From assembly GCA_030789695.1 (NCBI GenBank), contig CM061141.1:280619871-280683870 (forward strand): 64,000 nt of DNA. Direction: 5' to 3'. Below, piece after piece: positions 2,625 through 43,324 of the stretch (position 1 is the first letter of the stretch; each line of letters begins with the position of its first letter). Both the position numbers and the translations under genes were made by a program. The DNA is from Scilla litardierei. Lineage: Eukaryota > Streptophyta > Magnoliopsida > Asparagales > Asparagaceae. Under the pieces are notes generated by a model that saw only the letters and a list, made by a program, of their open reading frames with translations, searched no databases and had not been told where the DNA came from.

Positions 2625-3449
2625 ATGGATTCGGGACTTAGATACATGGTTGAGAAGAACGTGCTGGATGGAACGAACTACAAAGACTGGCTTAGGAACA
2701 TCAAGTTGGTCCTTTCCCTAGTCGGAATAGGATACGTACTGTTCGAGGACGCTCCAGATAAGCCGGATGAAGATTCGACCCACGAGGAAAAGGAAGCCTA
2801 CAAATTGTACCAGAGGGATGCAGAGAAGGCCAGGTGCCTTACTCTGGCTTCGATGACCAACGAGTTGCAGAGGAAGCATGAACATATGGATGTTCAAAGA
2901 ATGCTCCTCAACGCACAAGAGTTGTATGGCAAGCGATCAAGAGCTGCCAAGTTCGAGGCCACTAGCAACCTCTGGGGCACCAAGATGGGGACGGAACCCG
3001 TACAGGATCATGTTATCAAGATGATCGGGTACGTAGAGGACGCCGCCCAGTTAGGATTTATCCTGGACAATGAGATGTCCACGGACATTATCCTAAAGTC
3101 TTTGACTCCCGATTTCAAGCCTTTTATAACTGGCTTTATAATGAACAGCCTTGAGACGGATCTTCCGGGTCTCCTCAATATGCTCCGGCAGTTTGAGGAG
3201 ATTCATAAGAAGCCGGCTGCACTGGTTGTTGGCTCTGCTACTTCCGACCAGCCGAAAGGCAAAGGGAAGAAGATGCAGGTCCCACAACCTGCGAAGGCTA
3301 AGAATGGGAAGAAAAAGAACAAAGGGGCCCCGTCGAAATCTGAGTGCTTCCATTGCCACAAGATTGGCCACTGGAAGAGGAACTGCAAGATCTATCTTGC
3401 AGAGAAGAAGAAGGGGCATACTGATGCCTCTACCTCAGGTACAAATTAA
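2625..3449 (+). CDS. gag: Copia-type Gag polyprotein of TR-GAG-1
   Basis: The 274-codon product is the capsid/nucleocapsid protein that packages element RNA into cytoplasmic virus-like particles. Residues about 10-200 look like the UBN2/DUF4219 Gag family, with an N-terminal GTNYKDWLRNIKLVL block and the conserved LQxxHE-like region around residue 85. A lysine-rich stretch at about 208-238 leads to one CCHC zinc knuckle at about 241-254 (CFHCHKIGHWKRNC, spacing C-X2-C-X4-H-X4-C). The frame is intact and stops soon after the knuckle, with no fusion to protease or integrase. The ATG at 2625 is the first in frame and fits the family start. Retention of only gag suggests cis or trans use of Gag while pol comes from an autonomous relative. 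Confidence 0.85.
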   Translation: MDSGLRYMVEKNVLDGTNYKDWLRNIKLVLSLVGIGYVLFEDAPDKPDEDSTHEEKEAYKLYQRDAEKARCLTLASMTNELQRKHEHMDVQRMLLNAQELYGKRSRAAKFEATSNLWGTKMGTEPVQDHVIKMIGYVEDAAQLGFILDNEMSTDIILKSLTPDFKPFITGFIMNSLETDLPGLLNMLRQFEEIHKKPAALVVGSATSDQPKGKGKKMQVPQPAKAKNGKKKNKGAPSKSECFHCHKIGHWKRNCKIYLAEKKKGHTDASTSGTN

Positions 3450-16776: not shown

Positions 16777-19020
16777 TTAGACCTTTGGAAGCCAAGTCCA
16801 AGTGGACTTAGACTTCCCCACATAATTCTTACTATGCACAACATCCGAAAAATAAGCATTCATGTACATTTGTTTTTCGTCCATGCTTGTGTCCTTTGGG
16901 CTCCAAATAGTGAAAATTTTGGGAGCCATCATCCTATTGGGTGCATGCATGCTACGTTGATTTCTACGTGATGCATGTTGTGGATAGGCATACGGGACAT
17001 GATGGAATGGTGCACGACGAGAATTATTCATATGATGAGGTGGGTGTACATATGCATGTGTGGGAACACGTGCGTGAGGGTGTCTCACTTGGTGTGCACG
17101 TGCCCGAGAATGTGTTGCATAAAAATCATCATATGTGTGAGCCGGTGGAGTAGGACGTGTGTTCCTACGTGGCATGTTATTAGTGTACATGTAGGCATGC
17201 CCCTTCTTTGGAGGTCCACCCAAAGAGGGTTTCTTTCCGAAAGAGGGTGTGGACGAGGTGGAAGCACCATTGGTAGATGAACTACTAATAGAGTGTTTGC
17301 TCCCACTCGTTGAGGCTTCGGAAGTTGGCCTAACAAAAGTAGTGACCGACTTGGATGAATTTCCCATCATATACCCCAAGCCAATGTGGTGTTTGGCCGG
17401 AAGTAAATCTTTTAGGATATTATCCAAATGGCCTTTACCCTTGTTGAATTCGTTGATTCGGCCCAATGTGTTCTCATATTTCTCTTTGAGAGAACGCAAA
17501 GAAGTATCCAAAGTGGATATTTGCGAAGTGAGCACATAAACACGAGATTTAAGATTCTCGTTCTCAATACTCAAAGTCGAGTTTTGAGAAGTTAAATCCG
17601 ATATCTCATGTTCTTCCGCATCCTCAATGCTAACATGTTCGAGTTTAGATTTGAGATTCGCAATCTCATTTCTTAACTCTTCAACAACGGTGTCGTTGTT
17701 GGTGATGATATTCTTAGGCGATGTTTGAATGCTAGCTAGGTCATCTTTTACCTTAGTATATCTATTTACTAACTTAGTGTATTTTGACCAAAGTTGAGAG
17801 TTAGCATTTCTGAGATCATCCATCGTTACCTCATCGCTTTCGTCATTACTATCATCGGAAGAGGAGGATCCTTGATCGTTCTCCTCTCTTGCCATGAAGC
17901 ACATATGTGCTTGCTCCACTTTCTCATCATCCGACTCTCCGCTTGAGGAATCCTCGGAGTCGGTGAATGTTGCTCCGACAAGTCCTTTCTTGTACCCCTT
18001 TTTGTATTTCTTGGACTTATCGAATTTTGGCGCCTTCCACTTCTCCTTTTGTTTGTTGAGAGGACACTCCGCTTTCATGTGTCCTGGCTTATTGCACTTG
18101 AAACACAAAGGAGAGGAAGAGGCGTTAGAAGAACCAAATTTACCTTTGGTCTTGAAGTTACCTTTCCGGAAGAAACGGTTGAACTTCTTGGCCATGAGTG
18201 CCATGGACTCCAAGTCCAACTCGTTTTCCGAGTCTTCATCATCGGAAGATGTGGATGAAGCCGCCTTGAATGCAATCGCCTTTTTCTTAGGCGCATCTAG
18301 GTTCAAATATGACTTCATCTTTTCTTGTAGCTTCACCTTGCTATCTTTACGTACCTCGTATGACATCAAAGTACCCATTAGTTGAACTATGGTATATTTG
18401 TTCATGTCATTACCTTCCTCGATGGCGAAGGTACGTTTTTCCCAAGAAGAGGGAAGTCCTTCAATAAGCTTTAAGCACTTCTCCTTTTGAGTGTAGATCT
18501 TGCCGAGGGCCTCTAACTCGTTTATTATGTCAACGAAGCGAGCGTAATATTCTTTCATCTTCTCGCCCTGTTGCATATGAAACATTTCGTAATCTTTGGT
18601 TACGACAACGAGTTTAGAGTCTCTTACCCGACTCGTCCCTTCATGTAGTATGAGGAGAGAGTTCCAAATTTGATATGCACTCTTACATGTGCATATCTTA
18701 TTGAAGTCCTTGGGCTCCAATGCGCATTGCAAGGCGTTCATTGCCTTGGCATTGCTTACCTCCGCGGCGACCTCCGCGGTAGTCCATTTCTCAAAATCTT
18801 CTTCTTCGGGCTCGTTGTACTCCTTCATTGTAGTCCTCCATAAAGATGCACTTCGGAGGAAGGTTTCCATCCGACATTTCCAGTACCCGTAGTTGGTACC
18901 GTTGAAGAATGGAGGCCTTGTAGAGGAATGTCCTTCCATCACCGATGACACTCCTTCACGGTTCCTGAAGGTGTCGTAGTTTGAAGGTGGAGGCACGGTC
19001 TTGTTGTCGTTGGCAGACAT
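16777..19020 (-). CDS. gag: Sirevirus-1 Gag, intact, long coiled-coil type
   Basis: 747 codons. Residues about 35-245 form the UBN2-type Gag domain (PPFFNGTNYGYWKCRMETFL, YARFVDIINELEALG, LIEGLPSSWEKR). One CCHC knuckle lies at 306-319 (CFKCNKPGHMKAEC), followed by a lysine-rich and then an acidic Ser/Glu patch. Residues about 415-560 are heptad-rich and predicted coiled coil (ENENLKSRVYVLTSQIS). The tail at about 630-715 is very rich in His, Arg and Pro, which is unusual. A long Gag with C-terminal coiled coil is typical of Sireviruses. Gag stops at TAA 16779-16777; pol opens 53 nt further on in another frame. It forms the particle shell and binds element RNA. Confidence 0.9.
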   Translation of the reverse strand: MSANDNKTVPPPSNYDTFRNREGVSSVMEGHSSTRPPFFNGTNYGYWKCRMETFLRSASLWRTTMKEYNEPEEEDFEKWTTAEVAAEVSNAKAMNALQCALEPKDFNKICTCKSAYQIWNSLLILHEGTSRVRDSKLVVVTKDYEMFHMQQGEKMKEYYARFVDIINELEALGKIYTQKEKCLKLIEGLPSSWEKRTFAIEEGNDMNKYTIVQLMGTLMSYEVRKDSKVKLQEKMKSYLNLDAPKKKAIAFKAASSTSSDDEDSENELDLESMALMAKKFNRFFRKGNFKTKGKFGSSNASSSPLCFKCNKPGHMKAECPLNKQKEKWKAPKFDKSKKYKKGYKKGLVGATFTDSEDSSSGESDDEKVEQAHMCFMAREENDQGSSSSDDSNDESDEVTMDDLRNANSQLWSKYTKLVNRYTKVKDDLASIQTSPKNIITNNDTVVEELRNEIANLKSKLEHVSIEDAEEHEISDLTSQNSTLSIENENLKSRVYVLTSQISTLDTSLRSLKEKYENTLGRINEFNKGKGHLDNILKDLLPAKHHIGLGYMMGNSSKSVTTFVRPTSEASTSGSKHSISSSSTNGASTSSTPSFGKKPSLGGPPKKGHAYMYTNNMPRRNTRPTPPAHTYDDFYATHSRARAHQVRHPHARVPTHAYVHPPHHMNNSRRAPFHHVPYAYPQHASRRNQRSMHAPNRMMAPKIFTIWSPKDTSMDEKQMYMNAYFSDVVHSKNYVGKSKSTWTWLPKV

Positions 19021-27000: not shown

Positions 27001-27349
27001 AAATTACAGAGAGGGGTTTTAAGAATCTTCCCTGATCAGTACCCTACTAATCGGTCCATATTTTACACCTTTTTTCTGCATGTTTTCACGCTATTTCGAT
27101 TGCTCATATTGCGATTTTCACGAGTATTCGACGATATTGCGTTAATTTTCACTATTTCTTGTTTTTGTCGGATTTCAGGAAATATGGAGCGATCGGGAAC
27201 AAAAATGAGCTTAAAGGACTTGCACATGTACCGGAGCCTCGCCCATGGCTCTATCGAGGAGCTAACGGCGATGGAAGATGGGTGGAAGAAGAAGGAACTC
27301 CATAGGAGTGACGAGGAGGTGAAATGATGAAGATTGAGCATCTACAGCA

Positions 27350-27990
27350 TGTCACTCGGCCGAGTGAAGCACTCACTCGGCCGAGCAAGAAGACCACTCG
27401 GCCGACCAGACCGGACACGCACCACAGAAGGAAATCAGCGTGCACTCGGCCGAGTGACGATAGTCCACTCGACCGAGTATGGAGATCCCCTCGCCCGAGT
27501 GGCATGGAAAAATCCACCCATCGAAGGAGTCGACTTACTGGAATCTGTCAGGCGATTGAGGGTTCTGACTCGGCCGAGTACCGAATGTCCCTCGGCCGAG
27601 CGAGTAAAGCCACTCGGCCGAGTCACCTCCGAAGACAGACCCCCCAAGATCACCGACTTACTGGAATTTTACAGGGTCTGTCACTTGGCCAAGTAGAGAA
27701 GCCCACTCAACCGAGTAGAGAAGTCCACTCGGCCGAGTGACGCCGAGGACACGCAGCGCCCAGATTTTCAGACAACCATTCACTCTTTTGAAATCTGCTA
27801 TCATTCCAGCAAACAAAGTATTTTTATCATCTTTTTTATGGATAGTAGACTTCATGACGGTTCCAACACCGCCAAAAACGCGCCAATCGGAGGTCGGATG
27901 AAATCTGGAGAATTTCTGCAAGTTGACACTGCAGTGCTGGAATTCCCACTCGGCCGAGTCACATGTTCCACTCGGCCGAGTCGGCGACGG
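27350..27990 (+). repeat. Palindrome array in Athila-2 5' LTR U3
   Basis: About fourteen copies of the 14-bp palindrome CACTCGGCCGAGTG or close variants in about 640 bp. One variant, CACTTGGCCAAGTA near 27682, has changed both half-sites in step and keeps its symmetry. The array ends about 90 bp before the TATA box. Confidence 0.88.
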
Positions 27991-28076
27991 GCCCAGATTT
28001 TAAGTTGCGGTTTGGGCTGTTTTTGGGCACGAATTTGAGGGGTTTTCTAAGGTTATTTGCTAGGGTTTTGGGAGAC

Positions 28077-28084
28077 TATATAAG
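28077..28084 (+). promoter_or_regulatory. TATA box of Athila-2 5' LTR
   Basis: TATATAAG after GGGAGAC. In the right LTR the counterpart is TATTTAA at 39177-39183. It is the probable start site of the genomic RNA. Confidence 0.7.
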
Positions 28085-28468
28085 GGTTTTGTAGCCACCA
28101 TTAGAGAGGATCCCCCATTATGTTTTCTTAGCCCCCATATGTTTTTCTTAGGATTATTTTAGAGGTTAGGACATGCCCTAGGCCCCATCTTGGATCTAAA
28201 AGCTTGTATTTTGGATTGAAGATCTTCATCAAGCTAAGTATTTTCTTCTTTTTATTTGAATCTTTGTTTTTCTATCTTTTTGTATGCAAGCAATGATTTC
28301 TATTGATTCTCATATCCTTATTGCTATGCTAGAGTAGATTTGTTGTTCTAGGGTTTGGGGATGAACCCTATGGATCTAATTTCATATTTGTGATGAATGA
28401 ATTTCTAAATTTCTAGAATTGCTAGGAGGTTAGGTTGTGATTGATTTACTACGGATAGCTAGGGATTT

Positions 28469-28773
28469 CCATCGATTTGGGATTAGCAAGAGATTGGATT
28501 CTAATCGATGGGAAGGCCTAGATATTCGATTTAGATTTACAATTGGATTTCTCTAGATTTGGTTTGCAAGAGATTGGACCAAAGCTAGGATTTTTAATTG
28601 TAAATCTATACCAATATTCGTTTACAAGAGATTGGACGAATACGAACTATCACAACCTAGATCGTGACTCGAGTTTGCACGAGAGTGGGCTCGAGAAGCG
28701 ATTGGACAATGATGTCGATCCTAATGCAAGTGGCTTAGGTTAGGGTTTGCACGAGAGTGGGCTCTAACCTAGG
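28469..28773 (+). repeat. Five stem-loops with a shared loop word, Athila-2 5' LTR
   Basis: Loops at 28484-28497, 28564-28577, 28622-28635, 28675-28688 and 28747-28760 read TTGCAAGAGATTGG or TTGCACGAGAGTGG with small changes. Arms: CCATCGATT with AATCGATGG (9 bp); CTAGATTTGGT with ACCAAAGCTAG (10 of 11); TATTCGT with ACGAATA (7); CTCGAG with CTCGAG; CTTAGGTTAGGGT with GCTCTAACCTAGG (8-bp core). The arms differ between hairpins; the loop is the constant part. Confidence 0.88.
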
Positions 28774-29145
28774 TTTGCTATAGACCGGCAACAGCGCGAG
28801 AGCGTGAGCTAGGTTTTACATTCAGTTGTAACTAGTTCATCCGAAATTCTACCCTAGCAATTGTGATACCAATGAATCACATTGACGAGATACGGTGAGT
28901 AGAGGGGATTTCCTATTCCCTAGGCGTCTTTATTCGATTTTATATCTCTTTACTTTGTCTGACGATTGTGACAGCATCGCCGAAAGGCAAATTCCCTCTT
29001 TTCTGTCCCTATAGACATGTTGTTCAGAGAAGGCACTATCATACGTCCTCCATGTGTTCGATACCCGCTCGTCGCTACACCGTGCGCTTGCGGTAAAACT
29101 ACACGGTCGCTCTTTTGGGTGTACGCCCGAAATCGATCAAGTTTT

Positions 29146-29163
29146 TGGCGCCGTTGCCGGGGA
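29146..29163 (+). other. Athila-2 primer binding site (tRNA-Asp)
   Basis: TGGCGCCGTTGCCGGGGA, the classic tRNA-Asp site of Athila elements, six bases after the LTR end. Confidence 0.92.
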
Positions 29164-29435
29164 GGACATTTTGACGGTGTTCGGCATCGACCACCCGGTT
29201 ATTTTTCTTTCTTTCTTTACTTTCTTCTATATCCTTTTCTAACTCTGTTTGCATCCCTATTTGCATATTCTCCCCGTATTTTGCATAAGATCTTAACAGG
29301 TAGAATGGAGGATGCAATGTTGACAACGGAACTCAGGGAGATTATGACTCCTTCATAGACCTCCTTAAGGAGCTTGTCGATGAGGTCCACGCTACCGGAG
29401 CTTTTGCTATTGATATCAAGGACCCCGACGAACAA
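29164..29435 (+). other. Athila-2 leader with gag deletion
   Basis: A pyrimidine-rich leader leads to an ATG at 29305 that stops after 17 codons. Coding sequence then resumes in the linker upstream of RT. Compared with the usual Athila order, about 2 kb of gag and protease are missing. Confidence 0.6.
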
Positions 29436-32400
29436 TTGTTTGCTAGTTTTGTGATGGATCAAGTCTCCCCGGATGGGACTATCGGGGGCAATGTCAGAGT
29501 TGATGTGATAGACGACAAGTTATACTTCAAAGACAGTAGAACAAGTGTCGAAGAGCACTATACTCCCGAAGAATCTTTCGAGCAAACCAATGTTCAGGGA
29601 GTTACACTCTATGACACTCACTCTTGCTTTTATGAATCATCTGATGTGTTTCTTGATTCCAGGAACGAACCGGAGCAGAGTGAAGGTTTTGACGATGCTA
29701 GCACAGAATCGGAGAGCGTCTATTTCGATGCATCTTCCTCACTAAGGAGTGAGTTGGAGTCTTCACATGAGAGCACGTCACCTGAACATGAGCTAAACTC
29801 GGATGTCAAAGGAGAAGCCAAACTCATGCGACCTGATGAAGCAGAAGGAGCGGCACCTCTTGAGGTAGAACTAAAACAATTACCACCGAATCTAAGGTAT
29901 GCCTTTTGGGTAATAAATTAACTTTCCGGTGATAGTTAACTCCCGCCTCACGCATGATCAACTTGAGAGACTCCTAGACGTTCTTAGGAGCCACAAAGAT
30001 GTCCTTGGCTACACTATCTCCGATCTAAAAGGGATAAGCCCTAGGCTTTGCACACATAGGATCCATTTGGAGGATACCGACGCCACCTCCATAGAGCCTC
30101 AAAGGCGGTTAAACCCGAACATGAAAGAGGTGGTTAAAAAGGAAATCCTAAAATTGCTCGACACCGGTATTATTTATCCTATCTCTGACAGTAGATGGGT
30201 TAGCCCCGTTCACGTCGTCCCCAAGAAAGGGGGGATGACAGTTATAAAAAATGATAAAGGAGAGCCCATTTCTACATGCACCGTCACGGGATGGCGAATG
30301 TGCATTGATTATAGGAAACTAAATAAAGCGACCCGAAAGGACCATTACCCATTGCCCTTCATTGATCAAATGCTTGAACGCCTAGCTAAACATAAATACT
30401 TTTGTTATTTAGATGGGTATTCGGGGTTCTTCTAAATCCCTTTGCACGAAGATGACCAAGAAAAGACCACTTTTACTTGTCCCTATGGTACCTATGCCTA
30501 CCGTAGGATGCCGTTTGGTCTTTGTAATGCTCCCGCCACCTTTCAGAGGTGTATGACATCCATATTTTCCGATTACATTGAAAATATTATGGAAGTTTTT
30601 ATGGATGATTTTTCGGTTTATGGAAGTGAGTTTGACTCTTGTTTGGCCAATCTTACTAAAGTCCTTAAAAGGTGCCAACAAAATAATCTCACTCTAAATT
30701 GGGAAAAATGTCACTTCATGGTCACGGAAGGTATAGTTCTCGGGCACCTTGTCTCCTCGAGAGGAATTGAGGTAGATAAAGCAAAGATTGAGGTAATCGA
30801 GAAACTCCCTCCTCCTATTAATGTCAAGGGCATTAGAGGCTTTCTTGGTCATGCGGGGTTTTACCGCCGCTTTATCAAGGATTTCGCCTCGATTGCCCGA
30901 CCGCTTACTTCCTTGCTTGCTAAAGATACTCCTTTTATTTTTTCAGGAGAATGCTTGCAAGCCTTCAATACCTTGAAGGAAGCACTAGTTTCTGCGCCCA
31001 TCATACAACCACCGGATTGGAGCCTTCCCTTTGAGCTAATGTGTGATGCTAGCGACCAAGCCATTGGAGCGGTATTGGGACAAAGGAAAGATAGGAAGCT
31101 TCATGCAATATTCTATGCGAGCAAGACATTGGATGACGTGCAGAAAAACTATACAACTACCGAAAAAGAGCTTCTAGCGGTCGTCTATTCCATCGAGAAG
31201 TTTCGCTCCTACCTCCTTGGTTCCAAGGTGATTGTCCACACCGACCATGCGGCATTGAAATATCTTTTAAACAAGAAGGAGGCCAAACCTCGGTTAATTA
31301 GGTGGATACTCTTGTTGCAAGAATTCGATTTGGAGATCAGAGACAAGAAAGGTACGGACAATGTTGTGGCGGATCATTTGTCTAGGCTTATTCGTGACAA
31401 GGAGGATGAGAGTTTACCTATCGACGACACATTCGTGGATGAGAGGCTATACACCATAAGGCCCGGAGAAGTACCTTGGTACGCGGACTTCGTCAATTAC
31501 TTGGCTTGTGGAATTAAACCGCACGGGATGCCCACGCATCAAAAGAGGAGATTTTTGCATGAGGTCCGTAGCTATTTTTGGGAAGATCCATACCTCTTCA
31601 AGATATGCAAAGATAGTGTAATTCAGAGGTGTGTGTCTAAAGAGGAGGCAACGTCTATCATTTTGCATTGCCACGGTATGCCATGCGGGGGACATCATGC
31701 CGCCTCTAAGACAACTGCTAAGATTCTGCAGAGCGGATTCTTCTGGCCAACAATGTTTAGAGACACCCACGATTTTGTAAAGGGGTGCGATAGATGCCAA
31801 CGGACCGGGAATATCTCCAAACGCAATGAGATGCCAATGAGGCCCATCCAAGAAATTGAGCTTTTTGATTGTTGGGGAGTGGACTTCATGGGACCATTTC
31901 TGTCGAGCAATGGTAACAAATACATCCTATTGGCCGTTGACTACGTCTCCAAATGGGTGGAAGCAATCGCTACCCCTACCAATGATGCAAGGGTCGTCTC
32001 TAAGTTCTTCAAGCAGAATATCTTCCCACGCTTCGGAGTGTCTCGTACTTTGATAAGCGACGGGGGGAGCCATTTCATAGAAAACAAGTTTGAGGCCATG
32101 CTGAAGAAGTACGAGGTAAACCATAGAGTTGGCATGGCGTATCACCCCCAGACAAGCGGTCAAGTGGAGGTCTCAAATAGGGAGATCAAGCAAATTCTTG
32201 AGAAGACCGTGGATCGATCTAGAAAGGATTGGTCAATGAAGTTAAACGATGCTCTATGGGCGTATCGCACGGCCTTTCGCACTCCCATCGGCACCACACC
32301 GTTCCGACTTGTTTATGGGAAAGCTTGCCACTTGCCGGTAGAGTTGGAACACCACGCATATTGGGCCATCAATACCCTTAATTATGATTATAAGAGTACG

Positions 32401-33177
32401 ACGGTGAGGCGACTCTTGGACATCAACGAGCTTGATGAGATAAGAAGAGACGCCTACGAGAGCTCAAGAATTTACAAGGAAAAGACCAAGATTCTCCACG
32501 ATGCGCGCATAACCGTTACAGACTTCAAAGTAGGAGACAAGATCTTTCTTTATAATTCCCGGCTCCGACTATTTCCCGGTAAGTTGAGGTCACGTTGGTC
32601 CGGACCTTTCACCATCAAGCACATACAACCGGGAGGGGCTTTCGAGTTGGAAAGCAAGGACGGAGCCACATTCAAAGTAAATGGTCAGAGGCTCAAGCAT
32701 TATTCCGAGGGAGTCCCAATGGGAGAAATCAATAAAATATATCTGCTTAAGGGACGGCCGGATGATCTTTCATACCTCCTTGACGAAGTCATTGAGGAGG
32801 CGATCCCCCATTCCATCGGCGCTCTATTGAAGGATGATTTTAAGGAAGGGCCGGACTTGGGCCAAGAAGAAAAGATGGAGCATTCCCCCGATCCCTCCAT
32901 GGAAATTGATGAAGGCGACGCTGATGTCGCGAGAATACGAGAGCTCTGCAAGCTCTCAAAGATGAAGACTCCAAAGAAAGCCCCACCGATACGGAAATCG
33001 GTGTCACCGGTGAAGCCGAGGACCAGAGCAAGCACTAGCTTGGGGGAGCCACCCCCCAACACTACCCGAGACGAGAGACCACCGATGGAGAACACGCCGC
33101 CGCAACATCCGAATCCAAGCGTTCTTCCCGGAAAATTTGACGGGTGCATTTCATATGCACCCAATATCCCGCATTAA
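29436..33177 (+). pseudogene. pol: Athila-2 Pol: RT, RNase H and integrase, broken
   Basis: The linker at 29436-29921 ends ELKQLPPNLRYAF, then the frame breaks within T runs near 29900-29930. RT starts at 29929 (SHKDVLGYTISDLKGI, GWRMCIDYRKLNKATRKDH). A TAA at 30433-30435 after LDGYSGFF interrupts RT; where Athila RTs normally have Gln. From 30442, 911 codons are open: [11 protein letters not shown], RNase H ([26 protein letters not shown]), integrase zinc finger ([13 protein letters not shown]...CDRCQ) and core with D in WGVDFMGP, D in ISDGGSHF and E in QVEVSNRE. After the core comes a Gypsy integrase C-terminus and a basic Pro-rich tail. RT is not functional; integrase could still be intact. 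Confidence 0.88.
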
Positions 33178-33504
33178 ATTGAAAATCAAAGGGGGTCGAG
33201 CTCAAGACCTTAAATGAGCACTTGTCGGGAGGCAACCCGACGGTTATCGCTTTATTTTTACTTTTCCCTTTATTTTTGTTTTAGAAATTATTAGTGTTTT
33301 GAGTCGTTTGCCTAAAAATTTCGTGATAACGGGTCCTATTTTTCTTTGACAGGAGAGGAGAACGAGGTACCTATCATTAGGAGGGTGAACAAGGCGACGA
33401 GGAGCGCTCCAGGAATGCGCTCGATGCTTAGGAGGAAGATGAAATCAACTGGAGGAAGAAAAACAGAGTTTAGAGCCCAAACGAAGCCAAACAGCAGAAA
33501 ACAT

Positions 33505-33850
33505 GACTCACTCGGCCGAGTATACTAGTCACTCGGCCGAGCACATAAGCTCGTCCGCCCGAGCGGCTCACGAACGAGGGAAGTCTGCTGTACCCAACTC
33601 TCTGTTTCTTTTCTTGATTTCAGTATAATTTCCACTCGGCCGAGTATATATATTCACTCGGCTGAGTAATACTGATACGCTCCTAGGACGAGTATTGCCG
33701 AGTAGCTTGAGCCACTCGGCCGAATGGACTTTTACCACTCGGCCGAGGGTGGCAAGGCCACTCGGTCGAGTCGTAAGCGGGGAGGAATTTTTCAAAATAT
33801 TTCCGTTATGATCACTCGGTCGAGCGACTTAGTCACTCGGCTGAGTCGTA
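33505..33850 (+). repeat. Palindrome array upstream of Athila-2 ORF3
   Basis: About ten copies or variants of CACTCGGCCGAGTG, including CACTCGGCTGAGT and CACTCGGTCGAG forms. The last copy is about 15 bp from the TATA-like box. Confidence 0.85.
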
Positions 33851-33858
33851 ACTTTTCC

Positions 33859-33866
33859 TATATAAA
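33859..33866 (+). promoter_or_regulatory. Candidate internal promoter of Athila-2 ORF3 (TATA box)
   Basis: TATATAAA followed by GGGG and a GC-rich leader, 540 bp before the ORF3 ATG and directly after the palindrome array. Athila-1 has CCTATAAATTC in the same relative place. This suggests ORF3 is transcribed on its own. Confidence 0.5.
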
Positions 33867-34061
33867 GGGGAGCGGGTCGGCGCGTTTTTCGAAACGAGAA
33901 AAAACCCAAGACGCGCCACCGCTCGTCTCCCTCGCCCGCTGCCCCCTCCTCAATCGCCCGACCTCGCTCGCCGCCGCCGCGCTCGGCCGACCACCGTCGG
34001 CCGACGCCCCCTCCGCACCATCCAAGTCGCCGCCGGTGACCTCCTTGCCGGCCGAGCTCCG

Positions 34062-34224
34062 GTACCCTTCTTTTGCCTATTTCCTCCTCTTTCTTGTATT
34101 TTTTGACGATCCGCGCACCAATCGAGCGCCAAATTCAAATTAACTTCATTATCTATCTATTATACCCCTAACCCCCCCCATACATTTTGAATATTACTCG
34201 TTGATATCTTCGTTTGATGTGCAG
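34062..34224 (+). other. Possible intron in the Athila-2 ORF3 leader
   Basis: GTACCC at 34062 after CTCCG, a T-rich interior, and TTTGATGTGCAG ending at 34224 look like plant 5' and 3' splice sites 163 bp apart. Inference from motif only. Confidence 0.3.
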
Positions 34225-34403
34225 GGTATATTGGGGAGCTTAGGGGAGCCCAGGGGAGCTCCCGGGGAGCGATTTTGGCTTCGTGGAGGCGTCGTCTTCG
34301 CACGCATCCACTTCTTTGCTCTCGCGGCGTGTCACGGTATACTCGTTCCATTTATTTTTGCACACCGTATTTTTACTACTTTTGGTGAGCACCCGGGGCC
34401 CAC

Positions 34404-36482
34404 ATGCCGCCCCGGACACGGCCTCGGTCGAGGAGAGCTTCCGCCAAGCGGAAGCGGCCGGATGAGCCCGGCCCCTCCCACGAGGTGGAGGACTCTCCTC
34501 CGCCTACACCACCACACCTCGTTCACCCCGCACAGCCTGCAGACCCCGCACACCCCGCACAGCCTGCAGAGCCCGTTCACCCCGCACAGCCACTCCCTGT
34601 CGACCCACTGCCACCACCGGCTCCACTTGTCGGGCCGCTGGGGATTACGTTCCGGGACGACGCACACCGCGTCGTTTTTGAGTGGATTTCCCCGCGCTCG
34701 ATTGTACCCTCCAGGTTCGCACACCTTGCAGACCTAGGACGCCTGGGGGTACTTGAGGGGATGCTCACGTTGTATGACAACGTGGGTTGGCGAGATTTTT
34801 TCCAAGTGTCGGCGGACACCTTTGTCCGTCCGACACTTGAGGTTCTTAGTTCTATTGCCCGGACCGACGAGGGATGCTCGTTTAGGTTTATGGACCGGGA
34901 GTGCCAGGTCACTCTCGGTATGATGAGAGCATTCTTTTCGTGGCCCGATATCACCGGGGCCGACCGTGGTTACGCCCCCACTCACATTCCCCCACCTTCC
35001 TTCGACTCACACGCTTTCTGGGCCCGGATCACGGGTTTACCAGCTGCCTTTGACCCTAGTAGGGCCAAGGCCTCGGCCATCGTCCACCCCTGCCTCTGCA
35101 TAGCTCAGCGCCTTATGGCGACTACCTTTTTGGCGAGATATGAGCCTGGGATGATGTCCACGCCAGAGCTTTATATGCTCTATGCGATGACGCGTCCCAG
35201 AGTTCTAGCTAGGGAGAGTGACGACTTGGTCCCCGCCGTCGTGATTGATATCGCGAGCTGGTTTTTGGACCGCATCATCGTATCGGTAGGCGCTCGCTCA
35301 CCGATATGTTACGGCGGTCTGATCACCCTGCTCGCCCTGATGACCGGCGAGGACCTTCCGGCTGACCTGAGACGAGCCCCGGGCCCCACTTCACTGTCCA
35401 TAGACGTCATGGCCCGGATGAAGATGCTTCGTCCGCACGGCCAGCGGCACTGGGTTTGGTTGCACGGTCCATTCGGTGCTGATTACATGATCCTTCCGAG
35501 CCCAGCTCAGACACAGATAGCACCAGCACAGGTGGACTGGCTTCCGACGATGGATCTCCTGATCCCCGCCGCCTACGTGCTTGAGGCCGAGGAGGCCAAG
35601 CAGGCTGAGCAGGCCCACGCTGCCCCCGCTGACCCCGTGGCCCCTCAGCAGCCTGATATTTCTGCTGCTCCCAACACCTATGTCCACACTTCTGCCGGTG
35701 TCAGGAGTACACTCGCTGAGACCACCTCCACGCCCACCACCACTCCCACCACAGCTGGCCCTCTGTCTGTTGAGCCCCTTTGCTCCGCGCTACCTGAGCG
35801 CCCACCTACTATAGTTGAGAGCAGAGAGCCCTCTTTTGCTGCCGTCGTGGAGACCGTGGTTGTCACCTCTGTCTCCACCGCAGCCATTTTTTCCGAGAGT
35901 GTCGTGACGTCTGTTCCCACGTCTGTGTCACCGACCTCTCTGGCCGCCTCGTCGCCGCTTTTATACTCCACTTCCGCTGCTGCTGCTTCCACCTCATACC
36001 AGCCTGCGCCCCAGCCTCGCACTGAGGCTAGACCCACACTTGTGAGCACAGCACCCTTCCTCTACATGCCTACTGAGCCCATCCACTACACCACCCGAGT
36101 TCGCCAGCCACGTCCTGCACATCACAGACAGGTGCGTCCCTCTGCACCACCTCCCCCCCCCCCCCGACACTGTACTTCAGAGCATTCATGCTCTCGAGGG
36201 GGGGTGAGTGCCCTCAGAGGTGACCTCAGGACCATGTCTGCCACCGGCACCGCTATGGCCAGCCGCTTCGACCTACTTCCAGGCATTCACTATTGCCTCA
36301 CTCAGATTCTCGAGCGGCTTCCTCGCGTACCCACACCCACCCAGCAGGTACCCACCCCCACTCCTACACACCCCCAGCCTGCTTCCACACCCACACCCAC
36401 CCCCACACAGCAGACTATTCCCCAGCCACCACCACCTCCTCCTCCGCCTCAGGACGGAGACAGCGCAGCCCCACCCACTTAG
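34404..36482 (+). CDS. Athila-2 ORF3, ATHILA ORF1-like protein, intact
   Basis: 692 codons without a stop. The N-terminus (RTRPRSRRASAKRKRPDEP) is a strong NLS-like patch, followed by a Pro/His-rich stretch of short repeats. Residues about 75-320 resemble the ATHILA ORF-1/plant transposon protein family (LGRLGVLEGMLTLYDNVGWRDFF, HAFWARITGLP, QRLMATTFLARYEPGMMSTPELYMLYAM, YGGLITLLALM). The C-terminal half is Thr/Ser/Pro-rich and ends in polyproline. I see no signal peptide or transmembrane helix, so an envelope function is not supported despite the env-like position. Nuclear or RNA-binding roles are guesses. It is notable that this frame is intact while gag is gone and RT is broken. Confidence 0.8.
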   Translation: MPPRTRPRSRRASAKRKRPDEPGPSHEVEDSPPPTPPHLVHPAQPADPAHPAQPAEPVHPAQPLPVDPLPPPAPLVGPLGITFRDDAHRVVFEWISPRSIVPSRFAHLADLGRLGVLEGMLTLYDNVGWRDFFQVSADTFVRPTLEVLSSIARTDEGCSFRFMDRECQVTLGMMRAFFSWPDITGADRGYAPTHIPPPSFDSHAFWARITGLPAAFDPSRAKASAIVHPCLCIAQRLMATTFLARYEPGMMSTPELYMLYAMTRPRVLARESDDLVPAVVIDIASWFLDRIIVSVGARSPICYGGLITLLALMTGEDLPADLRRAPGPTSLSIDVMARMKMLRPHGQRHWVWLHGPFGADYMILPSPAQTQIAPAQVDWLPTMDLLIPAAYVLEAEEAKQAEQAHAAPADPVAPQQPDISAAPNTYVHTSAGVRSTLAETTSTPTTTPTTAGPLSVEPLCSALPERPPTIVESREPSFAAVVETVVVTSVSTAAIFSESVVTSVPTSVSPTSLAASSPLLYSTSAAAASTSYQPAPQPRTEARPTLVSTAPFLYMPTEPIHYTTRVRQPRPAHHRQVRPSAPPPPPPRHCTSEHSCSRGGVSALRGDLRTMSATGTAMASRFDLLPGIHYCLTQILERLPRVPTPTQQVPTPTPTHPQPASTPTPTPTQQTIPQPPPPPPPPQDGDSAAPPT

Positions 36483-38414
36483 GCACCCTTGATGCCATTG
36501 ATCTTTTTTACCGTCTTGCTGCCCGTCTCTGCTCGGTCCTGATGATTTTTGCCCACCCCCCCTCCCCTCACTGTTTTGGGTCCACATTCTGTTCATATCT
36601 TTCTATATCATTTTTGGGAGAGAGGGAGTGATTTTTGGTGTCACACTTTTATATCTGATTCACTCCTATATCTGCATGCATCCTGTCCGCATCATATTTT
36701 CATTTCGTTATTTTTTTTATTTCTTTTTCATCATGCATGCATCCTCACCTTCCCCTCACATTACACGTCTCTCGGTGTGCCACACTTCGCACATTGAGGA
36801 CACTGTGCACTTTAGCTTGGGGGAGTGAGTTCTCACGCTTTTCGATTTACCACCTTTATTTTTAGTTTTTTTTTCACGCCATTTTCCGCTTTTGCACTCA
36901 CTTTCATCACTTTTTCTTTTTTTTACCATGCATCACATTTTTTCTCATTTTCTTCGTGTGCTGCATTGTAAATAGCTTTATTTTCCCTCTTTATCTTTAT
37001 TTCTTTTAATCTCATGCTAGAGATGATTTTTCTGTGATGATGATGACGTGGAGTTAGCGTTCTCTATATGCATGCTATATTTGTCGTGTCTTAGATTTTG
37101 TTTCTGATATCATATGCTGTGATTTGCCTTGCATTCAGAGATAGTAACCCACACTTTTTCCGCATGAAAATGGATGAAATTTTATTATTAGCTGAGTCTG
37201 AATATTCATATGTATGCTATCATAGAAAACACACCAAGATTCACGCATTGGATGCTTATATCTGGAGTACCGTTTTCTTTTCCTATATCACTTCTATTTG
37301 CATGATTTGTACACTTCACTTCAGGATGATTGAACAATGTTAGCTATGATAAATCTGGATTAGTTTTGCTTTTTTGTGATCGAAACCGAGTAGATTAGAT
37401 TACCCTGCTGAAGTTGTCGTGTACGTCTTATAGAGTGAACTGAGACACATATTTATTTCTTTCTCCACATATCTTGAACATCAATTCTCTATTTTAAAAT
37501 CATTGGTGAATCTCTCCTTAGCGATTCTAATATATGGCATTTCCCCCGTTATTAAATCCTAGCTCCAAATTTCCCAAAACCAAAAAAAAAGAAAAAAAGA
37601 AAAAAAATTCTTGTATACCCTTATTTCTCTTTGATTTGGGATCATTGTGTATATGTGAGATTAAAAAAAGAGAGAAAAAAAAGGAAAAAAGAAAAGAAAA
37701 GAGAAAAGAATCTCAATAAACGATCCCATCTCATGTTCTCTCTTTCTTCCCTCTTTTTGTTTTTATTTTTATTACTTTTGGAGCTTCATAAAAATGGGGA
37801 AGTAAATATTGTTTTTTATGCCACCACGCTTATAGATAAGCTTGGGGGGGAGAATCCAATGATGTGTGAGAGAGTGACTACTTGACGGTGCACGACAACC
37901 TAGGCTAAGTAATATTCTATACTCGGTGAGATTGTTTTAGCTTCACGAAATCCAGAAATCTATGCCTAGCACTCATTTCATGAAATCCACGCTTTTCTAT
38001 TCTTTCTATTCTATTGTGTGATATTCTTATACTCCTCATAGAAAGCATTCAATTGAAAAGTGTGTGATCTGCGATATTGTATACCGCTTTAAATGATTCA
38101 GACGATGTTAATTTTAGAATTATTCCGTTTTTCATGCTATATCAATATTCCTGGGTTTTCTATTTCTATTTGCACCATTATACTATGATATCGAAATAAA
38201 AGTCTTTGACATGTGTTTTACATTCGGTGCATGCTATATGAGTAAGCAAAACCCACGTCCTGAGAAAAATGATCTAGCAGCTTCCCTCTTCGCTTTCTTC
38301 TTTCTTCTTCGTTTTTCGTTTTCCGTTTTTCGTCGTTTTCGTTTTCTGAATCCACCGGGTTCGCCTTTTACTTATCTTCCTCGAGGACGAGTAAGAGGTA
38401 AGCTTGGGGGATTT
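36483..38414 (+). other. Athila-2 3' UTR and polypurine tract
   Basis: No genes. It contains the conserved block ending AGCTTGGGGGAGTGAG at 36814-36829, shared inverted with Athila-1, an A-rich tract (37584-37710), a run of TTTTCGTTTTCCG repeats (38308-38345) and the PPT AAGCTTGGGGGATTT just before the LTR start at 38415. Confidence 0.7.
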
Positions 38415-38704
38415 TGATCACTCCGTATTTTACACCTTTTTTCCGCATGATTGCATGCCATTTAGATCGCTCAAATCATGTTTTTCACGATTTATCGACA
38501 ATATTGCGATACTTTTCACGATTTGTTGTTTTTGTCGTATTTCAGGAGATTTGGAGCGATTTGGAGTGATTCCGAGATACACCTACTCTGGAGTGTCACC
38601 GAAGACTTCCCTGAGGGGTATTTTCAGATTGGAGAGGAGCGGAAGAAGAAAGAACGTCGTAGGAGCGACGAGGAGGCAAAAACACTCAGAATGGACATTT
38701 TTAG

Positions 38705-39100
38705 TGTCTCACTCGACCGAGTGAAGGAGTCACTCGGCCGACCAGCGAGACCCCGCTCGGCCGGCCAGATCGGACACGCTCCAAGTGTGCACTCGGCCGA
38801 GCATCAGAAGCCACATCGGCCGAGTGACGAAACCCTGTCCGCCCGAGTGGCACTCAGACGACGCCCATCAAAAACTCCCAACTTACTGTTTTTCGTCAGT
38901 CTGAGCATCAGAAGACCCACTCGGCAGAGTGGCAATTGCCGACCGCCCGAGTGACAATAAGCCCATCAGCCGAGTGACGACAACTCACTCGGCCGAGTGA
39001 CCCCCGAAGTGAAGACTCCCAAGACCCCAGACTTACTGGAAATTCTCAGGGTCTTTCACTCGGCCGAGCGACTTTTGTCACTCGGCCGAGTGAGCCGAGC
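38705..39100 (+). repeat. Palindrome array in Athila-2 3' LTR U3
   Basis: About ten copies or variants of CACTCGGCCGAGTG. Order and spacing differ from the left LTR array, so units appear to turn over. Confidence 0.85.
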
Positions 39101-39570
39101 GCATGTAGCGGAAAACACGATTTTGAAGAGGCGCAGGGGCATTTTGGTCATGGATTTTTGGGCAGTTTTGGGGGGTATTTAACCCCTGATTCTAACCTAG
39201 GTTAGAGAGCTTTTTCCTTGCTTTTTGGCAGCCTTTTAGATTAAACTTTTTAGCTTTTGATTCTTGTGGTTGGAGAGGATAGAAAAGGTTTATTTTGTTG
39301 GATTCTTGAAGAACTACATTGGTTTGTCTCCCTCTTCATTAAAAATCTTATTTTTATTGCTTATTTGAATATTGATATGAATTCTATTGCTATTTCAATT
39401 GATTATTCTTCTATTTGTTAAATGATTTGTGAGTAGTCCTAACGTCTTAGGGCGTGGGGATGAACCCTACGAGCCCAATTTCCGATTTGTGATGATTTGG
39501 AAGAACTATTGCTAGAATTGCTATTAGGGTTAGTTTGGGATCGATATATTACGGATAGCTAGGTGTTCAT

Positions 39571-39873
39571 ATCAATTGGGATTTGCAAGAGATTGGATCC
39601 CAATTCGATAGGAAACCCTAGAAATCCGAATTGGGTTGAAATTGAGTTTCCGTAGTATCGGTTTGCAAGAGATTGGACCGATACTAGGGTTCTCGGTTGC
39701 AATTCCATACCGATACCCGTTTGCAAGAGATTGGACGGGTAGGAACTATCCCAACCTAGGTCGCAGCCCGAGTTTGCACGAGAGTGGGCACGGGATGCGA
39801 TTGGACGATGACGTTGATCCTAATGCTAGCTTGCCTAGGCTAGGGTTTGCAAGAGATTGGACCCGAACCTAGG
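39571..39873 (+). repeat. Five stem-loops with a shared loop word, Athila-2 3' LTR
   Basis: Loops at 39583-39596, 39663-39676, 39721-39734, 39774-39787 and 39847-39860. Arms: AATTGGGAT with ATCCCAATT (9 bp); TAGTATCGGT with ACCGATACTA (10 of 10); TACCCGT with ACGGGTA (7 of 7); TCGCAGCCCGAGT with GCACGGGATGCGA (10 of 13); CCTAGGCTAGGGT with ACCCGAACCTAGG (11 of 13). Same order as the left LTR, different stems. Confidence 0.88.
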
Positions 39874-40239
39874 TTTGCTATAGACCGGCAACAGCGTGAG
39901 AGCGTGAGCTAGGTTTTACATTCAGTTGCAACTAGTTCATCCGAAATTCTACCCTAGTAATTGTGATACCAACGAATCACATTGACGAGATACGGTGAGT
40001 AGAGGGGATTCCATATTCCCTAGGCGTCTTTATTCGATTTTATATCTCTTTACTTTGTCTGACGATTGTGACAGCATCGCCGAAAGGCAAATTCCCTCTT
40101 TTCTGTCCATAAAGCCAGGTTGTTCGGAGAAGGCACTTTCATACGTCCTCCCTGTGTTCGATACCCGCTCGCCGCTACACCGTGCGCTTGCGGTAAAACT
40201 ACACGGTCGCTCTTTTGGGTGTACGCCCGAAATCGATCA

Positions 40240-42132
40240 CATGATCCTTTCCTTTCGCTTCTTTCCTGCAATCAAGTCGTTTAGAAACTTAGCATAGGAC
40301 GATATTTCGACAATTGCATCCAAGAAGGGAATATTCAAGCTCATGCCTCGCAAATACTCCCGGAATTTGGCGAGCCGCTTCTCAATCTTTGCCTTTGCCA
40401 ATCGTCGTGGAAAGGGTACCGATGGCATATAAGTGCGCTCCTTTTATGGCTTATCAATTTCAGATTTTTCACCATCATTTGGCTCTTTTGGGCCCTCCTC
40501 TTCATTGACCGTCTCCTTGTCATCCGAAATTTCTTCCCCCGGCTCCTTGGTTTGAATCTTGGCGGGAGTAGTGTCTTTCCCGCCTCTTGTAGTTACCGCC
40601 ACAACCACATGATGTGGCTGGTATTGCTCCGTGGGTTTTGTTCCGGTTGAGCCGGCAATTGTTGAGTGTTCTTATTGAGCAATGCTAGTTTCTCTAATAA
40701 TTGTGCCATGACGGTGTTTATGGAGTCTTGTTGGGTCATCAATCTAGCATTAATCTTCTTTTGTTCGGCCATGAATTCTTCAACCCTCGCTTCATGTTCC
40801 GACCTCGGCGGTGCTTGCGGTGGATTCAGTGCCCTTCATCCTTGATTGTACCCCTGGGGTCTATATGGCCCCGCTTGTTGCCTCGGTGGGAAGTTTTTTT
40901 GTTGGGGTCCTCTTGGTTGATATTGTGGTTGTTGTGGAGGCCGAGCTTGTGGTTATTGCGGTGGCAGATTCAAGGCTCCATCATTGTTAGTGTATAAGAA
41001 TCCCAGGTGGTTCCTCGTAGCCGGGTTTGCCCAATAACCGGTGCTTTCCACAACATATTGAACTGCTCCATAGCTCCCTGTCCTTGCTCTCCTCCAACAA
41101 ACGTAACATGAGCTTGGTCTTTCCAATCGCTCATGCTTCCTCCAGGTGTAGAAACGGTGGGGGCTCCATGCGGTTCACTAATCAACTTCTATAATCTCTC
41201 CATGACCTTGTGAAGAGAATCAAACTTTGTCGAGAGCTCCGCTACGGCCTTCGCCTCATAAATGCTTGCCAGCTTCAAGGATGACGAAGAATATGCCCTC
41301 TCTCGGTCCATTGTTGGTTATTCGAGGCCATCTCCTCAAGTGAGGCTGTAGTATCATCCGGTGTTTTTGACAAAATAGCTCCATTGGTGGTTGCATCAAT
41401 TATTTGCTTTGTGCTCAGTTGCAATCCGTTATAAAATCTATGCACAAACTCACATGCCTCAATACTATGATGGGGACATTGGTGTTGGAGATCCTTGAAA
41501 CGCTCCCAAGCCTCATATAGAGTTTCCTGAGGTCCTTGCTTGAAGGACATGAGCGCGCTTCTTATCTTGATAGTCTTGGATGGCGGATAGAATTTGTTAA
41601 CAAATGCGCTCGCCAGCTCATCCCAAGTAATGAAGATCCCCTCGGCTTGCGTCCTCAACCAATACAATGCCTTGTCTCGAAGAGTAAACGGGAAGAGGCG
41701 CAGTCGAATAGCGTCAACCGGTACGCCAGGCATCTGGAAAGTGGCGCATTTGGCCAAGAACGACTGCAAATGGTAGTGAGTGTTTTCATGTGAGTTCCCA
41801 TGAAATGGGTCTTGTTGCATCAACACTACAAGTCCAATCTTCAGCTCAAAGTTCTTATCTGCTGCCAACTCTGACGTGGCTATGGAAGAGGTGGTAGAAG
41901 TGGTCTTAGACCGTAGCCTGTCTCGGATGGAGACAATCCTAGCCATACGTACCGCCAACTCCTCTGGTGTTTTTGGTCGGGCCATATGATCTTCCTCTAT
42001 AGCAAATCTCCTCTCGGCTCTAAGCCTTCTTGCCGTACGCTCGATCTCAGGATCAAATAATATATCTTCTTGCGACACCTTCGATCTCGTGTACATACAA
42101 GAAAAAGAGAGTCTCAATAGAATTGTTAGCAC
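40240..42132 (-). pseudogene. gag: Athila-3 Gag, broken and truncated
   Basis: An open part at 42132-41275 (285 codons) carries the retrotransposon Gag capsid domain: GVPVDAIRLRLFPFTLRDKALYWLRTQ, ITWDELASAFVNKFYPPSKT, ETLYEAWERFKDLQHQCPHH. Downstream the frame is broken several times, but Gln/Pro-rich sequence (from about 41030) and the segment at 40428-40240 (LAKAKIEKRLAKFREYLRGM, SYAKFLNDLI) match the Athila Gag C-terminus. The sequence stops at the Athila-2 border before protease. Confidence 0.8.
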
Positions 42133-42203
42133 AATAGAGTAATAAAAAGTAAAAATAATAATAATAAGAAATAACTATGTAAAGAAAATAAAATACCGTC
42201 GCC

Positions 42204-42221
42204 TCCCCGGCAATGGCGCCA
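42204..42221 (-). other. Athila-3 primer binding site (tRNA-Asp)
   Basis: TCCCCGGCAATGGCGCCA is the complement of the Athila primer site with one change (ATTGCC for GTTGCC on the element strand). Confidence 0.88.
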
Positions 42222-42227
42222 AAAACT

Positions 42228-43324
42228 TGATCGTGCCCGTATATACAACCGAAAAACGACTGTAGTCTTACCGTAAGCGTACGACGTAGTGGCGAGCGGG
42301 TATCAAACACAGGGAGGACAATTGACAGTACTTTATTTCGATCACCTAGCTATTGATGGAATAATGGAATGGTTTGGATAGTAATGTGTCACAATCGTTC
42401 AAATAGCAAATAGAATTCAATATAATAAAAGCGTCTAGGGATAGGAAATATCTACTATGGATCGTCACTTATCCTTGTGGATCATGAATCTCAATATTGC
42501 AAGGCTTGAATTTAGGTGAACTCGTCGCAACTGAATGTAGAACCAAGCTCAAGCTCTCGTACTATTACCGGTCTATAGCAACCTAGATTAGGGTCTACTC
42601 TCGTGCAAAGCCTAACCTAAACTACTAGCATGAAGATCGACATCATCGTCCAATCGCACCTCGAGCCCACTCTCGAGCAAACTCGAGCTACGATCTAGGT
42701 TATGATAGTTTGTATTCATCCAATCTCTTGCAAACGAATATTAGAATAGATTTATAATAAAAATCCTAGCTTTGGTCCAATCGCTTGCAAATAAAATCTA
42801 GAGAAGCTCGATTATAAACCTAAATCGAATATCTAGACCTTCCCATCAATTGGAATCCAATCTCTTGCAAATCCCAATCGATGGAAATTCCTAGCTAGTC
42901 GTAGTAAATCAATCACAACCTAACCTTTTATCAATCCTAGCAACCATTCAATTCATTCATCACAATTTAAAGATCGGATCCATAGGGTTCATCCCCATGC
43001 CCTAGAACAAAGAAACTACTCACAATTCATCATAGAAATCTCAGAAATAAAGAAATAGATCATAGCACAATTCATAGTTAAGAGAGAACAATTCATAAAA
43101 ACAAGAGTTTTAAAGAGAAAGATCAAACCAAATTGTGCGTATATGATCTTTAGCTAAGAATTACAATGGAATAGCTGTCAAAAATAACTTCAAGTCTCTC
43201 GAATAAAACTAGGTTTAAATACAAGTCAAATTCGTCCAGAAATTCCTGACAGAATTGCCCCTGGTGCAGCTAAAAACCCTAATTCGCGATCCAGACAGAC
43301 TGCGCCACTCGGCCGAGTGAAACA
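42228..43324 (-). repeat. Athila-3 5' LTR, partial
   Basis: R/U5 side of the LTR, 1097 bp, beginning TGATCG on the plus strand. It contains the stem-loop array at 42575-42884 and one CACTCGGCCGAGTG copy at 43306-43319, then is cut by Sirevirus-2. Confidence 0.8.
42575..42884 (-). repeat. Stem-loop array in Athila-3 LTR
   Basis: Same five positions as in Athila-2. The best kept is CCATCAATTGGAAT (42843-42856), loop CCAATCTCTTGCAA, arm ATCCCAATCGATGG (42871-42884): 12 of 14 pairs plus G-T wobbles. Others are partly decayed, as expected of an old copy. Confidence 0.75.

Follow-up and report, generated by a model that had tools for sequence, protein, structure and literature searches.

Five repeated GNRA-tipped hairpins in a predicted leader RNA domain of Athila retrotransposons from Scilla litardierei

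How plant Ty3/gypsy elements distinguish genome RNA from mRNA is, to our knowledge, little understood. Many retroviral core psi elements sit between the primer binding site (PBS) and gag, downstream of the PBS. A pair of GACG hairpins in murine-leukaemia-type retroviruses, reportedly described by Konings et al. in 1992, likewise lies downstream of the PBS and is said to be linked to packaging and dimerisation. Phage boxB, the partner of lambda N, is a single GNRA-fold pentaloop hairpin that works with a basic peptide in transcription antitermination. Among plant retrotransposons, BARE is of the Copia type. Conserved dimerisation and packaging signals have been proposed for BARE (PMC3735527), and the 5'-terminal RNA domain of the LTR retrotransposon Ty1 combines long-range stems with a role in packaging and dimerisation (PMC5454406). 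According to PMC7599994, retroviral NC binds tetraloop hairpins, and in HIV-1 it was bound to the loops of the psi and SD hairpins.

Here we analyse a hairpin array in the R/U5 leader of Athila elements, found in a 64,000-nucleotide stretch of the Scilla litardierei genome, referred to below as the window. An earlier note on this DNA had proposed five stem-loops with a constant 14-nt loop and covarying stems, and knew of no description of such an array. The open full-text literature (PMC, subscription papers aside) likewise yielded no earlier account.

The Athila element and its hairpin tips

The window holds an element with left and right LTRs and a second element, Athila-3. The Pfam domain order RT-RNaseH-integrase, with an ATHILA-type ORF after pol, places the first in the Athila lineage. 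The features are as follows.
27030-29139, + strand: left Athila LTR (27030 approximate; 3' end at CGATCA, 29134-29139)
28077-28083, + strand: TATA-like box of the left Athila LTR
29146-29163, + strand: primer binding site, which we take to be of the tRNA-Asp type
30442-33177, + strand: RT-RNaseH-integrase ORF (PF00078, PF17917, PF17919, PF17921, PF00665)
34404-36482, + strand: ATHILA ORF (PF03078, E 8.9e-12)
38415-40239, + strand: right Athila LTR, with the same hairpin domain at about 39526-39909 and five tip words
41275-42132, - strand: gag ORF of Athila-3
42575-42884, - strand: Athila-3 LTR, with the same five hairpins

Several side observations concern the same stretch. The U3 regions (27600-28000 and 38700-39080) contain many CACTCGGCCGAGTG near-palindromes and variants of them. 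The 5'-splice-site-like sequence CGGTGAGT lies just 3' of the hairpin domain in the left (28893-28900) and right LTRs and is absent at the corresponding place of Athila-3. CGATCA recurs with identical flanks at 49968 and 55999 on the + strand, about 6.0 kb apart, which suggests a direct repeat or an LTR pair. Gag-like CCHC knuckles at 18105 and 63323 (minus strand) and at 3345 (plus strand) probably belong to other mobile elements of the window.

All five places are real in each of the three LTRs: a window search allowing up to two mismatches returned 15 matches to the tip word, compared with a mean of 1.34 and a maximum of 6 in 100 shuffles.
Left LTR, + strand: tip words at 28484, 28564, 28622, 28675 and 28747
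Right LTR, + strand: tip words at 39583, 39663, 39721, 39774 and 39847
Athila-3, - strand: tip words at 42857, 42777, 42720, 42667 and 42595

One mismatch is present in two of the five words of the left LTR and in three of the five of Athila-3, and the spacing of the tips is nearly fixed at 80/58/53/72-73 nt. The arm sequences given in the earlier note for hairpins 2 and 3 are exact in both the left and right LTRs. The constant 14 nt do recur; they are, however, best read as a structured tip rather than an open loop, with a 3-bp stem (CAM/KTG) and a GAGA tetraloop of their own, because this fold recurred, though not in every case, when the single hairpins of ten LTRs were folded. From its foot upwards the tip comprises a U·G wobble, a 5' bulge of two bases (U followed by G or A), the 3-bp stem C-A-M/K-U-G and a GAGA tetraloop of the GNRA type; the stem below it is variable in the same folds.

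Genomic copies and the closed domain

In the 3.68 Gb host assembly, TTGCAMGAGAKTGG occurs exactly 200,454 times (100,983 + 99,471), against 15 for the reversed control. The inner pair is A..T or C..G in every one of 100 TTGCAMGAGAKTGG matches listed, and the C..T mismatch form of the word was found 247 times in the genome. Sampling by the anchor TTGCTATAGACCGG (14,721 genome matches; control, 3), which covers part of the base of hairpins 5 and 6, makes no use of the tip word. Judging LTR number from the word count, the domain would be present tens of thousands of times in the genome, each sampled LTR holding three to five tip words. Domains were taken from 25 LTRs by the word (seven + eighteen), from 90 by the anchor and from 3 in the window; these 118 domains yielded 108 unique sequences, of which 107 were used (L166 was dropped). 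Such genomic copies constitute a natural mutational record of the domain.

Across the 107 LTRs, 513 of 535 tips have a GAGA tetraloop (382 of 395 among the 79 LTRs sampled by the anchor). A U·G wobble is present in 523 of 535 tips, and a C-G pair in none. Since C-G would be stronger at this position, the preference for U·G suggests that sequence is recognised and not shape alone. The M-K pair of the tip stem covaries and is compensated in hairpins 4 and 5: the inner pair of hairpin 4 is C-G in 94 LTRs, A-T in 6, T-G in 4 and other in 3, and that of hairpin 5 (28752/28757) is A-T in 74, C-G in 32 and T-G in 1. On internal branches of the tree, which were taken as the element's active life, changes per column amounted to 0.05 for GAGA, 0.10 for CA, 0.91 for stem arms and 2.08 for the unpaired domain; on terminal branches the value for GAGA was about 0.95. 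The tips thus appear to have stayed fixed while the element was active, a reading to be taken with the fact that 25 of the 107 LTRs were chosen by the word itself.

The array of five hairpins can also be extended, as it sits in a larger closed domain at about 28370-28900. In the RNAalifold structure of 19 non-redundant LTRs, helix P0 closes the junction of hairpins 1-3 and is followed by hairpins 4, 5 and 6, all six hairpins being enclosed by long-range pairing (28389-28416/28854-28881). Hairpin 6 also has a GAGA loop, but its stem is a different one and lacks the constant word. About 250 nt separate the end of the domain from the PBS at 29146. Its parts in the left LTR are listed below.
28389-28416, + strand: long-range closing helix, 5' arm (pairs 28400/28870 and 28401/28869 switch from A-T to G-C)
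28431-28441, + strand: helix P0, 5' arm, enclosing hairpins 1-3
28452-28528, + strand: hairpin 1 with lower stem (tip word 28484-28497)
28532-28608, + strand: hairpin 2 with lower stem (tip word 28564-28577)
28615-28642, + strand: hairpin 3 (tip word 28622-28635; pairs 28617/28640 and 28618/28639 switch from T-A to C-G)
28649-28659, + strand: helix P0, 3' arm
28660-28703, + strand: hairpin 4 (tip word 28675-28688)
28728-28780, + strand: hairpin 5 (tip word 28747-28760)
28783-28815, + strand: hairpin 6 (GAGA tetraloop 28798-28801)
28854-28881, + strand: long-range helix, 3' arm

Pairing, covariation and the sense strand

For a held-out test, a 157-pair structure from 19 LTRs was applied to 68 others and compared with 300 simulations, the simulated null retaining the tree and, for each column, how many changes occurred and of which kind. 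The structure took 157 of 159 pairs, with the innermost pairs of hairpin 1 swapped for its three tip pairs; four hairpin 7 pairs from the all-LTR test were added, and the tree and root states came from all 107 LTRs. In the held-out LTRs, 94.5% of pair cells were canonical compared with 83.5% (sd 1.3) under the null, and canonical cells with both sides changed numbered 330 compared with 130.1, neither value being equalled in any simulation (0/300 each). Slid structures gave 28-44% paired and 25-98 both-side cells. Among structural classes, the 28 long-range and minor pairs were 92.1% paired (null 78.7%, 0/300), the 14 pairs filed as P0 95.7% (null 83.2%, 0/300) and hairpin 6 95.3% (null 86.0%, 2/300). 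The number of pairs with any both-side change lay weakly above the null (36 vs 30.3, equalled in 30 of 300 simulations). Variation is scarce in the inner stems of hairpins 1-4, which were not significant alone, their percentages being equalled in 31 to 163 of 300 simulations. Both-side cells fell below the null in the lower stems of hairpin 1 (0 vs 6.9), hairpin 4 (0 vs 8.7) and hairpin 5 (0 vs 0.6), as well as in hairpin 6 (1 vs 10.1).

Covariation over all pairs (107 LTRs x 540 columns) passed only 28752/28757 of about 145,000 pairs, as two deep subfamilies presumably link columns everywhere. The second-ranked pair, 28819/28828 (E about 5), gave rise to the idea of a hairpin 7 (28816-28831). 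We do not accept it as a fixed helix, since pairing holds in 52.6% of its cells; nor was its pairing significant (equalled in 113 of 300 simulations). When RNAalifold was run per subfamily, the two structures of 110 and 159 pairs shared 62. Placed on A LTRs, the B structure had 33 pairs that varied; pairing was kept in 30, both sides having changed in 13. With the A structure on B LTRs, 21 pairs varied and 15 stayed paired, both sides having changed in 6. The slid control, made for A, gave 0-1 both-side and 12-25 broken pairs at shifts of 1-3 columns. Between the left and right LTRs, 149 of the 157 pairs were comparable (canonical in the left LTR, no gap): 115 are the same, 20 are kept with one side changed, 10 are kept with both sides changed and 4 are broken.

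The arms therefore do not vary independently, and the covariation and the maintained RNA element that the earlier note had proposed are both borne out by held-out pairing well above a null that preserves relatedness. An origin of the complementary arms by descent alone, from a functionless tandem duplication, would draw on the shared ancestry of the LTRs and on the five similar units, which suggest an old duplication. Pairing nevertheless exceeds a null that already retains the tree and the per-column changes, and we find this origin, together with hairpins formed at the DNA level, barely credible.

The earlier note had also allowed for single-strand DNA. Excluding hairpin 7, the 16,314 pair cells comprise 13,110 Watson-Crick, 2,590 G·U, 255 A·C and 359 other combinations, and the held-out cells 8,243, 1,653, 177 and 280, respectively, with the G·U count somewhat favoured by a structure taken from a program that accepts G·U. 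Single changes from Watson-Crick to G·U outnumber those to A·C on internal (87 vs 36) and terminal branches (232 vs 154). In a DNA hairpin, G·T on one strand and A·C would be equivalent, so the G·U excess points to sense RNA; at 10:1 over A·C it makes the single-strand DNA alternative unlikely, and it led us to discard a cruciform or DNA hairpin as well. Thermodynamic folding was also compared between strands. The region 28427-28810 has a fold energy of -153.2, compared with -95.4 (sd 4.8) for 60 dinucleotide shuffles (z -12.0), and the right-LTR domain has an MFE z of -7.3. In favour of DNA-level hairpins, antisense equals or surpasses sense in two windows of the right LTR, at 39501 (z -4.4 vs -3.2) and at 39581 (z -4.7 vs -4.7); over the whole domain, however, antisense is less stable in both LTRs (left, -103.4 vs -153.2; right, -123.6 vs -148.1). 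In the left LTR, 160-nt sense windows fall below z -2 only at starts from 28401 to 28801, and the signal is weaker in Athila-3 (best window z -4.0). Taken at the level of sequence comparison, the evidence supports one conserved sense-RNA domain of about 400-530 nt in the R/U5 leader of this Athila lineage, and we are all but sure that it folds as an RNA structure.

The left LTR itself has an uneven history. Its identity to the right LTR is 0.49-0.83 in windows up to 28762 and 0.93-0.97 beyond; at 28841-28910, left-right identity is 0.971, compared with 0.633 between and 0.775 within subfamilies. This pattern suggests that the left LTR is a mosaic whose parts join near hairpin 5. Broken long-range pairs number 5 of 15 in the left LTR, compared with 1 in the right LTR and 0 in Athila-3; in 4 of 107 LTRs there are five or more. 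A broken long-range helix in a recombinant LTR fits arms that coevolve inside each subfamily. Recombination near hairpin 5, such as co-packaged RNAs could give, and the location in R/U5 would also suit a scaffold for RNA dimerisation or for strand transfer during reverse transcription. We consider this role quite improbable: a GAGA loop is not palindromic and would not be expected to form kissing-loop dimers, and the mosaic may stem from post-insertion recombination.

Candidate roles, other LTR families and known systems

Repeated identical tips on freely varying stems suggest a multivalent platform for one protein. An identical tip at near-fixed spacing, with free stems and a fixed bulge, would allow one protein to be bound many times, and the likeliest ligand would be the element's own Gag. 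As a model of the leader domain, a multivalent protein-binding platform seems probable to us. By analogy with retroviruses, the domain may more specifically be a Gag-binding packaging signal, for which we would put the chances a little short of even; in that role it would allow full-length RNA to be selected for virus-like particles.

Evidence on Gag and on psi elements bears on the packaging reading from several sides. Among homologues of the Athila-3 gag ORF, a CCHC-type pattern was present in 52 of the 120 matches listed, out of 267, and the listed names are plants. Several Athila-type Gag homologues (P0006, P0007, P0009 and others) have the knuckle spacing C-x2-C-x3-H-x4-C, the usual spacing being C-x2-C-x4-H-x4-C. 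The window's own gag copies are broken, and no zinc knuckle was found in them in three frames of 29141-34500 (+) and 36001-42230 (-). Like psi, the domain is conserved structured 5' leader RNA, with a transcription start inferred from the TATA-like box alone; its position at about 28370-28900, however, is upstream of the PBS (29146) and not between PBS and gag. According to PMC7599994, a non-native GAGA loop, among other changes, lowered the infectivity of RSV, and replacement of the HIV-1 GGAG loop had no significant effect on packaging. GAGA is accordingly not an obvious NC target.

The leader may instead serve translation, as an IRES-like or shunt element that leads ribosomes past a long leader rich in upstream AUGs to gag, with GNRA tips making tertiary contacts or binding initiation factors. 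The leaders of about 1 kb in the left LTR, right LTR and Athila-3 contain 17, 7 and 17 AUGs, several of which are conserved (28709 in 96% of the 107 LTRs), making plain scanning to gag hard. These counts do not exceed the approximately 20 expected from base composition, with leader starts taken from TATA-like boxes alone, and the domain stops about 250 nt short of the PBS. We know of no IRES that uses as many as five identical tips, a number that tells against this role. One IRES review names GNRA tetraloops 11 times (PMC5759354); on the other side, work on BARE indicates that plant retroelements may keep distinct RNA pools for translation and replication. On balance, we regard a translation element as unlikely. 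Rather less likely again is a host-factor platform, in which a host protein bound to each tip would stabilise unspliced RNA or promote its export from the nucleus, much as a constitutive transport element does. The repeated identical site and the constrained sequence of wobble and bulge (U·G in 523 of 535) would suit it, but no host protein with specificity for this tip is known to us.

Searches beyond Athila were directed at both the structure and the primer site. In Rfam, nothing in 28000-29200 scored above the gathering score; the best of three matches was MIR8706 (21.4 bits vs 95, E 0.32). Viral and prokaryote collections gave single-word matches in 94 stretches and two-word matches in 77 stretches, and in at least 117 in another search. 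Clusters of three or more tips within 350 nt, among the matches listed there, consisted of one word repeated identically or almost so and were set aside as tandem repeats. The exact Athila PBS had 0 matches in the viral collection. In the host genome, the primer site gave 29,410 matches (control, 0). Of the first 31 sites listed, 20 were examined at 0.2-1.0 kb upstream; the other 11, lying beside already sampled LTRs, were excluded. Five of the 20 upstream regions match the Athila leaders, with three to five tip words in each; because of the exclusion, this proportion provides no frequency estimate. The remaining 15 match none of the three Athila leaders and would represent other LTR families.

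One non-Athila cluster, aligned from nine LTRs (L427, L428, L430, L432, L434, L437, L438, L439 and L442), has two conserved GNRA hairpins with purine 5' bulges and covarying stems (CAC/GTG, CAT/ATG). Its loops are GGGA in 17 of 18 cases and GAGA in one; with a structure derived from the same nine LTRs, both sides changed in 33 of 136 pairs, and G·U outnumbers A·C by 178 to 22. One copy of this cluster has a Pfam gag ORF. In each of two further LTRs there is one CAY-GAGA-GTG hairpin. Since RNAs often contain GNRA hairpins, the likeness of these hairpins to the Athila tips need not mean kinship. A broader proposal, a 'hairpin code', would have the RNAs of plant Ty3/gypsy elements with tRNA-Asp-type primers marked by bulged GNRA tips that Gag reads, in a fixed number for each family (five GAGA in Athila, two mainly GGGA in the second family). 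We advance it tentatively, with doubts outweighing confidence; if true, it would be the first plant-metavirus packaging signal readable from sequence. Because the domain is abundant and recognisable from its sequence, and its tip spans about 20 nt, the way in which genome RNA is told from mRNA becomes accessible to experiment with short RNAs and recombinant Gag.

Compared with known systems, the Athila domain combines familiar parts in a different arrangement. It shares conserved-tetraloop hairpins in the 5' untranslated region with the GACG-hairpin pair, yet that pair comprises two GACG hairpins 3' of the PBS, whereas Athila has five (plus one) GAGA hairpins 5' of the PBS, five of them with a UR bulge; with five hairpins and GAGA loops in 513 of 535 tips, it does not belong to the GACG class. 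HIV-1 also has a structured leader with tetraloop hairpins (psi with GGAG, SD and the GNRA-type AUG hairpin), but in the available text of PMC7599994 its tips all differ, have other loop sequences and form no single-motif array. The Ty1 domain, similar in its long-range stems, contains a pseudoknot and complementary kissing loops according to PMC5454406, in contrast to the non-palindromic GNRA tips of Athila. For BARE, a plant element of another type, the accessible part of PMC3735527 describes no repeated GNRA array. Finally, boxB offers the likeness of a GNRA-fold hairpin bound by a basic peptide, but as a single pentaloop hairpin devoted to antitermination, whereas the Athila leader carries its GAGA tip five times within one closed domain.
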